Source: a virus
DNA length: 29,511 nt
IMG/VR virus record: IMGVR_UViG_3300031877_000006
Span: 1 to 29,511 of that record
Reading direction: 5' to 3' (one strand)
Positions 4,314 through 16,741 of the stretch are shown in pieces. Positions within the stretch are counted from its first letter, which is position 1, and the number at the start of each line of letters is the position of its first letter. The notes beneath the pieces are model-generated. The model was not told the DNA's origin, searched no databases, and saw nothing but the letters and a program-made list of their open reading frames with translations. Position numbers and translations under genes: made by a program.

Positions 4314-4571
4314 TTGCCAATGGTTGTTCGTTGTCGTGGCTGTGGCAGTGTTCTGCTACATGCTGAAGAATTGCCTGCTGCAGAATGGTACCTCAATGTT
4401 TATGCACATTTTAATGGGCACTGTCAAGATTGTAAACGCAAGTTGCCATCTCCAATGGCTTTCAAAGAAGCCATTAATGTTGAAGTTAAGCCAAACTCAG
4501 CGACATTGAACAAGTCTGCGTTAGTCTCTGCTTTTCACCACGACTATCACAATGAGGTGGCTGAGACGTGA
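4314..4571 (+). CDS. Zinc-ribbon protein, 85 aa
   Basis: TTG start directly after the previous TAG, with GGAGG at 4298-4302; ATG 4320 is the alternative but is too far from that site. Two cysteine pairs, CRGC near residue 7-10 and CQDC near 39-42, enclose about 28 residues, the spacing of a classical zinc ribbon. The C-terminal half is helical, then polar (SALVSAFHHDYHNEVAET). It is part of the zinc-protein run and may bind nucleic acid or modify host transcription. Confidence 0.6.
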   Translation: MPMVVRCRGCGSVLLHAEELPAAEWYLNVYAHFNGHCQDCKRKLPSPMAFKEAINVEVKPNSATLNKSALVSAFHHDYHNEVAET

Positions 4572-4804
4572 GTGACCGGCGGCAATCATCACCTGCCCCA
4601 GCTGACCCTGGGCGTAAACAGGCAGCCCAGGCAGCCACCACCCCAAAAATACGAGATTGGCCAATCTGCGCCCTTTGTGGTCAGTCAATATGGCCGTCAT
4701 ATCAATATCAGGAGTTACACGCGTTCTGCAGAGATTTACTGTCCTTTCTGCCTAAGGGCGCCAAAATCAAAATAACGTTTCCCAAGGAGGCGCCCCAATG
4801 CTGA
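4568..4804 (+). CDS. Small zinc-knuckle protein, 78 aa
   Basis: It starts at GTG overlapping the previous TGA. The first 28 residues are a disordered Ala/Pro/Gln linker. A compact motif follows (CALCGQSIWPSYQYQELHAFC), giving a C-x2-C-x14-H-x2-C zinc site, then a short basic strand. Another frame across the same bases encodes a 67-residue protein without such a pattern and is taken as a shadow. The end overlaps the next ATG. Confidence 0.5.
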   Translation: MSDRRQSSPAPADPGRKQAAQAATTPKIRDWPICALCGQSIWPSYQYQELHAFCRDLLSFLPKGAKIKITFPKEAPQC

Positions 4805-5181
4805 AGACTAAGGTTCGGGTTATGGGAGAGCCTGGGCTGTGTGAGAAGGTTGCTGCCGTTGTCCAGGAGCATTTTGTGATTGAGGGGCGACCTGAAAAAC
4901 ACGAAGGCCTTGTTGGACCTAAAGCTGATCGTGCGGATGCGCTTGGAATCACCGTTTACATTACGGTGCGAGAGCCTGTTGAGCCTGAATCTGGCTACTC
5001 TGTGACCTGTCCCTTATGTGGCAAAGTCTATCAGGATTGGAATGGGTTGCAAACGAAGGAGCAGGTTGAGAACAGTTTCAGGGCGCATTTGAGTGGGAAA
5101 CACTGCGTCAGAGGCGATGTTTTCAAAAAAGCCTACGAAAGCGCGAAAAGAAAGGAGACAATTGTATCATGCAGCATGTGA
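4798..5181 (+). CDS. C2H2 zinc-finger protein, 127 aa
   Basis: The ATG lies eight bases after a CAAGGAGG ribosome site and overlaps the previous stop. The N-terminal 60 residues form an alpha/beta part (KTKVRVMGEPGLCEKVAAVVQEHF, then ITVYITVRE). The C-terminal part has C71, C74, H97 and H102, a C2H2 finger with a long loop, followed by C103 and a basic helix. Such fingers in archaeal viruses are usually DNA-binding. Its last four codons overlap the start of the repeat protein. Confidence 0.6.
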   Translation: MLKTKVRVMGEPGLCEKVAAVVQEHFVIEGRPEKHEGLVGPKADRADALGITVYITVREPVEPESGYSVTCPLCGKVYQDWNGLQTKEQVENSFRAHLSGKHCVRGDVFKKAYESAKRKETIVSCSM

Positions 5182-5594
5182 TTTCTCAACCGCCAAAGAG
5201 TCGCTGGGCATGTCCAAAATGTAAATGCCTAACCGTACATATGAAGACCGTTAACGGGTTTGTTTGTGTCGAATGTGGTTCACCGCTGGCGCCCACTGAA
5301 TCAGAAAAACGAGCCTACTATCAACGACCTGACGTCAAGGAGAAGCAACGAGCCTACCGTCAACGACCTGACGTGAAAGAGAAGCAACGAGCCTACTATC
5401 AACGACCTGACGTCAAGGAGAAGAAACGAGCCTACCGTCAACGACCTGACGTGAAAGAGAAGAAACGAGCCTACCGTCAACGACCTGACGTGAAAGAGAA
5501 GAAACGAGCCTACATGAGGCAGTGGGCAGAACGACGCCGTGAAAAACTCCGCAAAATGAAGGAAGATTTAGTTATGGAGGTTTCTGCACCCTGA
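5169..5594 (+). CDS. Zinc-ribbon protein with 13-residue tandem repeats
   Basis: Residues 1-40 form a zinc ribbon (CPKC, then CVEC about 20 residues later). Five near-perfect 13-residue units follow, of the form RAY(Y/R)QRPDVKEK(Q/K), then one partial unit, and the protein ends in a basic helix (MRQWAERRREKLRKMKEDL). The units are rich in Arg, Lys and Tyr with one Asp and one Glu, and should form an extended positively charged helix array able to lie along DNA or RNA. The ATG sits inside the end of the previous gene. The repeats are also nearly identical in DNA, so unit number may vary between relatives. Confidence 0.7.
   Translation: MQHVISQPPKSRWACPKCKCLTVHMKTVNGFVCVECGSPLAPTESEKRAYYQRPDVKEKQRAYRQRPDVKEKQRAYYQRPDVKEKKRAYRQRPDVKEKKRAYRQRPDVKEKKRAYMRQWAERRREKLRKMKEDLVMEVSAP
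5310..5513 (+). repeat. 39-bp tandem repeat, five full units plus partial
   Basis: Units start at 5310, 5349, 5388, 5427 and 5466. They alternate between two types (TAT/GTCAAGGAG and CGT/GTGAAAGAG variants), which suggests duplication of a 78-bp pair followed by one extra copy. The repeat stays in frame and changes only a few codons, so it is a coding repeat and not a CRISPR or origin array. Confidence 0.9.
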
Positions 5595-14476: not shown

Positions 14477-15355
14477 TTGAAGACCTTAAGAAGAGTTGGA
14501 ATTGAAACAGGACAACTAACAGATGAGGAGCTCAGATATGTTGATGCCCGTGTTGTCGAAACTGTTACACCACTGTTAGTTGGAAGAAAACTCTTTCCAT
14601 TCTTTAGACTTCCACATGCTGGACTGAGGACCGTTCGCGGATGGAAAGAAACCCCCATGGGACCAGCCACAATCGACATGGATGGCGAAACTGATGCCTT
14701 CGACCGCATTGAACTCACGGCTTTCAACATCAACGTTCCAGTAATCAGCAAGGGCTTTTACCTTAACTGGCGTGACATCATTGCAGCTCGAGAAGGCGGT
14801 ATCCCAATCGATACTCGTAGCGTGGAAAATGCAGCCCGCCAAGTGACTGAAGAGGAAGACAAACTGCTCCTAAGTGGCGAATATACGGGCTGGAGAGCGC
14901 TTGGCATTGAAGGTTTAGCAACAGCGACAAGCCGTAACACTCAGGCGAGTGGAGGTGCATGGGCAGCCAACTGTATCGCCGATATCAACGCCGCCATCGG
15001 TAAGCTCGAAGCTGCAGGACATTTGGGACCTTACGCCCTGATTCTTCGAAGCACATGGTACCGTAAATTACCGACCATGATTAGCAACACCGGCATTTTC
15101 TACCTTGAGAAAGTGCTGGAACTTGTGAAAGCAGGCATCTTGGTTAGCGACTCATTGTACTCGAGCGGAGGAGCGACAACAAGCGCATTGATTGTGGAGC
15201 CTTCTGCAGACAATTTTGACATGGTAGTTGGCCAAGATATTGCGACTTTCATGTGGCAGGACAAAAACATGAACCTCTTTGGCAAGGTTTACGAGGTCAT
15301 GGCGCCCCGGATCAAACGACCCGCCGCAATCTGTGAGATCACTGGATTAACTTAA
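14477..15355 (+). CDS. Major capsid protein, HK97 fold, encapsulin-like
   Basis: Builds the icosahedral shell. TTG start with AGAGGG upstream. At 292 residues it has no long N-terminal delta domain. Several stretches resemble the encapsulin branch of the HK97 fold: helix QVTEEEDKLLLSGE (spine), the segment YALILRSTWYRKLPTMISN, then LELVKAGILVSDSLYSSGG, MVVGQDIATFMWQDKNMNLF, and the closing strand ending RPAAICEITG. Its neighbours (decoration before, small linker protein after) confirm the role. Whether it assembles a T=1, T=3 or larger shell cannot be told from sequence, though a genome near 30 kb needs a larger one. Confidence 0.8.
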   Translation: MKTLRRVGIETGQLTDEELRYVDARVVETVTPLLVGRKLFPFFRLPHAGLRTVRGWKETPMGPATIDMDGETDAFDRIELTAFNINVPVISKGFYLNWRDIIAAREGGIPIDTRSVENAARQVTEEEDKLLLSGEYTGWRALGIEGLATATSRNTQASGGAWAANCIADINAAIGKLEAAGHLGPYALILRSTWYRKLPTMISNTGIFYLEKVLELVKAGILVSDSLYSSGGATTSALIVEPSADNFDMVVGQDIATFMWQDKNMNLFGKVYEVMAPRIKRPAAICEITGLT

Positions 15356-15428: not shown

Positions 15429-15665
15429 ATGAAATTCAAAATCTTGCCGAAGGTCGCAAGCTTCACTGACGCTGAAGGCGTTGAGCATAAGCCAGGGGAG
15501 ATTGTGGAACTCCCACTGTCTTACTTGGGTGAGACTTGGCTTGAGCCAGTTGAAAAGCCGAAGAAGGCTGAAGTTCCGGCTGCCAAAGTTGAGCCTGCGC
15601 CTGCGGAAGAGAAATCTGCGAGCCCTTTAGAGACCAAATCGAAAGGAAAAAAGTCAAAGTCTTAA
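15429..15665 (+). CDS. Small capsid-neighbour protein with Lys/Pro/Ala tail
   Basis: ATG with GTGGAGG upstream. Residues 1-40 form a compact beta module (MKFKILPKVASF, then HKPGEIVELPLSYLG) like the small proteins that follow many capsid genes. Residues 41-78 are a flexible Lys/Pro/Ala/Glu linker ending KGKKSKS. The last codons contain the slippery heptamer A AAA AAG. A -1 shift there would continue into the glycosyltransferase-methyltransferase frame, so the tail would act as the linker between an anchor and the enzyme. Confidence 0.7.
   Translation: MKFKILPKVASFTDAEGVEHKPGEIVELPLSYLGETWLEPVEKPKKAEVPAAKVEPAPAEEKSASPLETKSKGKKSKS
15641..15653 (+). promoter_or_regulatory. Probable -1 ribosomal frameshift site (A AAA AAG)
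   Basis: In the zero frame the codons are GGA AAA AAG, so positions 15647-15653 read A_AAA_AAG, the heptamer used in E. coli dnaX. GAAAGGA directly upstream resembles a ribosome-pausing site, although the spacing is much shorter than in dnaX. The -1 frame then runs VKVLIGIPNLREND, the natural start of a family-2-type glycosyltransferase, and that frame has no ATG, GTG or TTG between its last upstream stop (15590) and this point. Confidence 0.6.
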
Positions 15666-16741
15666 TCGGTATTCCAAACCTGCGGGAGAATGATCGTTTC
15701 GCGTCTTACCGAGAGGATGTACTCCGCCATATTACGACAGCGATCGGCGACGTATCTCATGAAGTTTTTGTTACTCCGCCAACACATACCGAAAGTTGGC
15801 CAGGCGTAGTCGACCGCTGCAATCTTATAGTTGACAAGTTTCTGTCCGGGTCCTGGACATATCTCTGGCTGGTCCAAGCTGATGTGCAAGTTCCCAAGGA
15901 TTCATTTCAAAAATTGTTAAGCCTTGATGTCGATGTGGCGCAAGGTATTGTCTCAGGGCATGATGATAATAACCGTCTTGTCGCTGGCTACATGGATGAA
16001 AACATGAAAGTGTGGTATCTGCCACGTAAAGCGATTGAAGGCATGATCCTCTCGGGTTGGGTCTTCGCTGGTCTCAGCTGCACATTAATCAAAAGGCGGG
16101 TCTTGGAGGCTAAAGTCCGATTCCGATTGGTGCCAGGCGTAGGTGAAGATGTTTTGTTTTTGTATGACGTGCAGAGTAAAGGCTTTGTTGCACGTGTGCA
16201 TGGCGGTGTATACTGCGGTCATTTGCCTGAGTGGCCGCTTACTACAGGAATGCCTAAACATTCCCGTGGTGAATTTAGAGTTTTGGATGTAGGCTGTGGT
16301 CATCAGCCAAAAGGCGATGTGAATATTGATTTATTCCTGGGTCCTACCGCGCATCGTTCAGCTGATCAACGCATTTGCGACGACGTCGCCCTGGATATAC
16401 GTAGTATCTCAAATTTAGTTAGAGCGGATGGTTGCCATCTGCCTTTCAAGAATGGGGCCTTTAAGAAAGCTTGTTGTGCACATTTGATTGAGCATATTCA
16501 AGAACCTGAGCAATTACTCGCGGAGATGAGCCGCGTTGCAGAAAGTATTGAGGTCCGATGTCCTCATCAGGATTGTCCAGGTGCTTTCAATGAGACTAAA
16601 CTATTGCACCTTCGTAGTTTTCATCCTTCGTGGTTTCAAGTTAACCTTTCAAAGTTGGGATTAAAAGTTGATGTCCACACGGAGTTTTCTCAGGGTCTGC
16701 CTTTCGAGATAGTTGCGCAAGGATGGAAGTTCAATGGTTAA
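15653..16741 (+). CDS. Glycosyltransferase (GT-A) fused to methyltransferase
   Basis: Two enzyme domains in one chain, 362 residues from the frameshift point. The first (about 1-195) is GT-A-like: VKVLIGIPNLREND at the start, YLWLVQADVQVP as the sugar-nucleotide/metal strand (QAD in the DxD position), and GVGEDVLFLYDVQSKGFVARV. The second (about 205-362) is an S-adenosylmethionine methyltransferase: FRVLDVGCGHQP (motif I), VNIDLF, ADGCHLPF and CCAHLIEHIQEPEQLL. It likely adds and modifies a glycan, perhaps on the capsid or tail. The frame has no normal start; a GTG at 15884 would cut the glycosyltransferase in half. Expression by -1 frameshift from 15429 is inferred. Confidence 0.7.
   Translation, partial: VKVLIGIPNLRENDRFASYREDVLRHITTAIGDVSHEVFVTPPTHTESWPGVVDRCNLIVDKFLSGSWTYLWLVQADVQVPKDSFQKLLSLDVDVAQGIVSGHDDNNRLVAGYMDENMKVWYLPRKAIEGMILSGWVFAGLSCTLIKRRVLEAKVRFRLVPGVGEDVLFLYDVQSKGFVARVHGGVYCGHLPEWPLTTGMPKHSRGEFRVLDVGCGHQPKGDVNIDLFLGPTAHRSADQRICDDVALDIRSISNLVRADGCHLPFKNGAFKKACCAHLIEHIQEPEQLLAEMSRVAESIEVRCPHQDCPGAFNETKLLHLRSFHPSWFQVNLSKLGLKVDVHTEFSQGLPFEIVAQGWKFNG

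Follow-up and report, generated by a model that had tools for sequence, protein, structure and literature searches.

A family of tailed viruses of Bathyarchaeia appears, judging from sequence comparison, to join a small protein encoded after the capsid gene to an enzyme lacking a start codon of its own by means of a −1 ribosomal slip. The arrangement was analyzed in IMG/VR record IMGVR_UViG_3300031877_000006 (29,511 nt, ~29.5 kb; hereafter the window), and the small gene followed by the enzyme in the −1 frame was found in 19 viruses, namely the window and 18 relatives, with near-identical copies counted once. It is very probable that the two frames constitute one recoded gene, in which −1 slippage, most likely on the in-phase heptamer C_CCU_UUA, would give rise to a 437-residue fusion. 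We prefer this explanation because, among the hypotheses considered, only −1 frameshifting accounts together for the heptamers, the stop-free overlap and a natural in-frame fusion present in one further relative.

Gene Layout Downstream of the Major Capsid Gene

The capsid-proximal locus of the window contains the following features.

14477..15355, plus strand: major capsid protein of the HK97 type (match to Pfam Linocin_M18 / Major_capside)
15429..15665, plus strand: zero-frame ORF for the small post-capsid protein (78 aa; stop codon TAA at 15663-15665)
15593..16741, plus strand: open frame of the glycosyltransferase-methyltransferase (GT-MT), −1 relative to the small gene; canonical start absent before 15884
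15623..15629, plus strand: in-phase heptamer C_CCT_TTA, the best-supported −1 slip site (in phase in 14 of 19 viruses)
15647..15653, plus strand: in-phase heptamer A_AAA_AAG (X_XXY_YYZ phase), secondary or alternative slip site
15653..16250, plus strand: GT-A-like glycosyltransferase (GT) domain (Foldseek matches; PHROG glycosyltransferase)
16269..16738, plus strand: class I SAM methyltransferase domain (Pfam Methyltransf_11)
15429..16741, plus strand: predicted frameshift product of 437 aa (by sequence arithmetic; in-frame counterpart at L007:5804-6646)

The nearest upstream stop in the GT-MT frame is located at 15590-15592, and a scan for ATG, GTG and TTG identified GTG 15884 as the first canonical start, in agreement with the initial annotation, which had described the enzyme frame as start-less up to this point. 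In the modelled enzyme (15623-16738), the GTG corresponds to residue 88 and directly follows the Asp that is invariant in the LVQAD-V-x-VP motif, whereas residues 12-17 are predicted to form the first GT strand. Since this codon lies inside a GT motif and downstream of three predicted strands, it is not a credible start; gene callers would report the enzyme truncated, from 15884, with its N-terminus lost. If the slip takes place at C_CCT_TTA, the 437 residues correspond to 67 zero-frame and 370 −1-frame codons. The initial annotation had instead placed the slip at A_AAA_AAG, which is indeed in phase and from which −1 reading continues as KKVKVLIGIPN; it had overlooked C_CCT_TTA, the conserved heptamer of the two.

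Domains of the Small Protein and the Enzyme

The small protein is predicted to comprise a beta domain of ~40 residues, a Pro/Ala/Lys linker and a basic tail, the latter modelled with low confidence and probably disordered. Fold and family searches with this protein returned nothing significant; the matches to YqbF (2hjq, E 3.2), DUF7210 and uncharacterized phage proteins were too weak and were rejected. In several relatives, the expected start of the small gene behind a strong GGAGG is a near-cognate codon: CTG in L023, L024, L025 and L047, ACG in L031, ATC in L033 and ATA in L034. Such a start possibly lowers the dose of the small protein.

The enzyme model (mean pLDDT 79, pTM 0.56) was matched by Foldseek to GT-A enzymes, including COLGALT1, mimivirus R699 and WrtF, as well as to class I methyltransferases. 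Several of the GT-A enzymes were retrieved with a probability of 1.00, which assigns the N-terminal domain to the GT-A fold; the corresponding TM-scores are moderate (0.35-0.40), being normalized by the two-domain query. At the DxD position, the first Asp (D87) is invariant, and the place of the second acidic residue is taken mostly by E, in some sequences by Q or C, and in the window by Q. The C-terminal domain is recognized by Pfam Methyltransf_11 (E=3e-7, 31 bits vs a cut-off of 21.2).

Occurrence in Related Viruses and Host Assignment

A search with the GT identified one distant relative only, and a search of annotated phages with the GT-MT produced zero matches. Relatives were collected by capsid alignment, which gave 19 loci, and GT alignments added further loci. 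The major capsid protein was found in 14 out of 14 GT-bearing viral records checked; in the L031 record (contig 4383-5346) its match falls into two pieces, 4383-4457 and 4543-5346, perhaps reflecting a frameshift, an insertion or an intron in the capsid gene. Among 13 capsid-bearing records without a capsid-adjacent GT, no GT was detected elsewhere, although these records may be fragments.

The layout in the 18 relatives supports the proposal of the initial annotation that a −1 frameshift feeds the start-less GT-MT, and it also bears on the objection that a sequencing or assembly indel in the A run, or decay of the gene, has separated two frames that belong together. The relatives, located on other contigs, have the same frame relation with an open and conserved GT-MT frame, and in one further relative (L007/L036) the small protein and the GT are naturally encoded in frame within a single 280-codon ORF (L007:5804-6646). 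An indel artefact is thereby refuted, and for an indel or decay taken together we see practically no probability left. More distant relatives, L002/L039 and L019/L038, show other variants: the −1 overlap of L002 contains a GTG in frame, and the GT of L019 stands apart from the small gene and has its own ATG. A gene resembling HNH endonucleases, as named by eye, is located at L019:3640-4200, with a remnant of the GT N-terminus on one side and the ATG-started GT on the other.

Among the matches, L061 was found on a Bathyarchaeota MAG contig and L069 in another genome belonging to the same class. On the L069 contig, apparent host genes are followed by an integrase-like ORF and then by virus head genes (names assigned by eye from translations), a succession that resembles a provirus; thus, L069 looks like an apparent provirus in a Bathyarchaeia genome. 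The apparent provirus at L070-L072 (33-78 kb of contig C2 of G142, a genome of the Bathyarchaeia class) lies near STT3/AglB-like oligosaccharyltransferase and GlcNAc-phosphotransferase-like genes (likewise named by eye).

Candidate Slip Heptamers in the Overlap

The overlapping frames of the small gene and the GT-MT contain in-phase heptamers of the X_XXY_YYZ type, as expected for frameshifting in the −1 direction. C_CCT_TTN is in phase in 14 of the 19 viruses, and four of these 14 (L027, L028, L030, and L032) have no A_AAA_AAR. In the remaining five (L031, L033, L034, L037, and L050), CCCTTT is absent, and in-phase A_AAA_AAG is the only heptamer type. Conservation of A_AAA_AAG, the check suggested in the initial annotation, speaks for this heptamer in the five viruses where it stands alone and against it in the four that lack A_AAA_AAR.

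Chance rates were estimated by redrawing synonymous codons; because the sequences share ancestry, the resulting figures, which ignore it, are not independent. CCCTTTN arises by chance in ~2.5% of sequences, compared with ~24% for A_AAA_AAR, and A_AAA_AAG appeared in the tail of the window in ~22% of redraws, so that an A-rich heptamer alone is weak evidence. At the C-rich heptamer the codons read AGC/GTC/GCC/ATC CCT TT(A/G/C): the residue preceding it may be V, A, S or I, but the third base of its codon is C in every case. At the conserved Leu-Pro of these small genes, by contrast, nearly every synonymous codon is used. In L061, Pro-Phe replaces Pro-Leu in the zero frame, and CCCTTT is retained. 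C_CCT_TTN is thus conserved (14 of 19 viruses, uncorrected for relatedness) beyond what amino acid and codon usage constraints require.

In 10 relatives that have the small gene without a GT, A_AAA_AAR was found in none and C_CCT_TTN in one, L003. The latter virus, whose capsid protein is the closest to that of the window among the relatives retrieved, keeps C_CCT_TTA (L003:7136-7174), with no GT and a −1 frame that stops within five codons. This heptamer is perhaps a relic of a lost GT, and its presence ahead of a closed −1 frame indicates that C_CCT_TTN can persist unused.

Alternatively, the ribosome might slip at A_AAA_AAG in the window and leave C_CCT_TTA unused, a sub-case of the frameshifting model whose likelihood overlaps with that of the model as a whole. 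The window and L069 have exactly the same GGAAAAAAGTCAAAGTCTTA, and L037, one of the five viruses with A_AAA_AAG as the sole heptamer type, has nearly the same sequence, even though the GTs of these three viruses are only ~41-45% identical to the rest of the group; in Escherichia coli, A_AAA_AAG is highly shift-prone (PMC5009743). However, its chance frequency in the tail of the window and the four viruses that keep C_CCT_TTN in its absence make exclusive use of A_AAA_AAG rather unlikely. The proposal of the initial annotation that A_AAA_AAG is the slip site is hence not upheld: it is probably a secondary site in the window, with slippage more likely at C_CCT_TTA. The GT protein tree left the main group mostly unresolved, and the A_AAA_AAG-only state requires ~3 label changes on it. 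Transcriptional slippage on the A run, which is 6 to 9 long in several members, could also generate mixed mRNAs that are read conventionally. Most A runs are short, though, L027, L028, L030, and L032 have no A_AAA_AAR heptamer, and the conservation of C_CCT_TTN would stay unexplained; we regard this explanation as very improbable.

Frame Use and Start Codons in the Overlap

From the heptamer to the enzyme, the −1 frame is free of stops in all 19 viruses, whereas upstream of the heptamer it is closed after a median of ~3 codons. The last eight codons before the zero-frame stop were compared in 13 viruses: stops in the −1 frame number 0 vs 10.7 expected, and those in the +1 frame 1 vs 1.0 expected, that is, no avoidance. 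Amino acid similarity in the overlap is elevated in the +1 and −1 frames alike; as this measure cannot single out the −1 frame, it was set aside as evidence. Consensus folding 3′ of the heptamer revealed no conserved stem-loop or pseudoknot, and inspection by eye revealed no conserved upstream stimulator or Shine-Dalgarno sequence. Such stimulators are frequent but not obligatory in frameshifting. To our knowledge, C_CCU_UUA is not a proven site of efficient slippage on archaeal ribosomes.

The main competing explanation is stop-coupled reinitiation at a near-cognate or GTG codon overlapping the stop of the small gene (GUAA, AUAA, GUGA), which would release a free GT-MT. In 13 of the 19 viruses, the zero-frame stop does overlap the codon located two residues ahead of the conserved VLVGIP strand; this codon is ATA or GTA in most cases and GTG (as GTGA) in L022 and L031. 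This explanation gains some weight from the CTG, ACG, ATC or ATA codons at which the small gene seems to start behind a strong Shine-Dalgarno sequence in several relatives, since they imply that weak starts are tolerated in this lineage. Against it, ATG is not found at this codon in any of the 19 viruses, though a single substitution would create one, and no GGAGG-like site precedes the GT strand; the window itself has GTC at this codon and its stop three codons later. More broadly, in the stretch from the −1-frame stop to the GIP motif, ATG is absent from all 19 viruses, and GTG occurs in seven, as a valine codon of the strand. Reinitiation would furthermore leave unexplained the conservation of C_CCT_TTN, the stop-free −1 frame upstream and the in-frame fusion in L007/L036, and we consider it improbable.

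Predicted Products and Their Possible Role

Under the frameshifting model, the majority of ribosomes would terminate at 15663 and produce the 78-residue protein, while a fraction would slip by −1, most likely at C_CCU_UUA (15623-15629) or else at the second possible site, A_AAA_AAG (15647-15653). The shifted ribosomes would continue to 16741, and their product would consist of the small protein, a Lys-rich linker, the glycosyltransferase and the methyltransferase. Both the occurrence of slippage and its rate are what we infer here. The small domain would position the enzyme at the assembling head or close to it, and a virion or host surface protein would be glycosylated, after which the sugar would be methylated. 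We tentatively suggest, as a possibility short of an even chance, that the fusion is a low-copy GT-MT anchored to the virion or prohead via a small head-associated protein, that it glycosylates and caps the capsid or a Bathyarchaeia surface glycoprotein, and that its dose is set by slippage. If frameshifting does operate, these viruses would provide a conserved example of archaeal recoding with ~19 natural variants, including natural swaps of the two slip heptamers.

Comparison with Known Recoding Systems

Coat proteins extended by frameshifting are known from T7/T3 (gp10B), Lactobacillus phage A2 and Listeria phages A118/A500 (PMC5009743). In these phages, as in the arrangement proposed here, a −1 frameshift takes place where a head-module gene ends and yields a second product with a C-terminal extension. 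Extensions encoded in frame exist too, as in L007/L036 here. In systems of the T7 gp10B type, however, it is the coat protein that receives the extension, in many cases an Ig-like domain, whereas here the extended ORF is not the major coat protein gene but a small post-capsid gene, whose product would gain a two-domain enzyme, and the viruses are archaeal. Frameshift extensions in the phage head are thus known, and what would be new is the enzyme cargo and the archaeal viruses. If the proposal is correct, what a tailed virus attaches to a head-module protein by frameshifting is here an enzyme and not a binding domain.

Linkage of a structural protein to an enzyme by a −1 frameshift is also the principle of Gag-Pol and of the capsid-polymerase fusions of totiviruses; these belong to retroviruses and RNA viruses, carry a polymerase and use structural stimulators, in contrast to the present locus with no conserved stimulator found. 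In giardiavirus, CCCUUUA was earlier proposed as the slip site, an assignment disputed in PMC8230311. The remark of the initial annotation that no described example of such a design is known agrees with our finding none, in the literature searched, for an enzyme on a head-module protein of a tailed virus, but has to be narrowed in view of the coat-protein extensions and Gag-Pol (PMC5009743). No report of this arrangement was found in the literature searched, which misses most subscription journals. On archaeal ribosomes, −1 slippage at a heptamer has been described for the tail G-T genes of HVTV-1 and HCTV-1/2/5, for fucA of S. solfataricus and for Mg-chelatase (PMC8211752, PMC5009743); these cases concern tail chaperones or cellular genes and do not involve a head-module enzyme.

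Head-tailed viruses of Bathyarchaeia have been classified as Fuxiviridae and Kunpengviridae (PMC10848311), which, compared by description, are likewise Caudoviricetes from Bathyarchaeia, and an HK97-like capsid protein is reported for Fuxivirus. That study does not mention frameshifting, and its one glycosyltransferase belongs to a spindle-shaped virus. Elsewhere in the window, an ORF at 5169-5594 contains a repeated RQRPDVKEKQRAYYQ-like unit.
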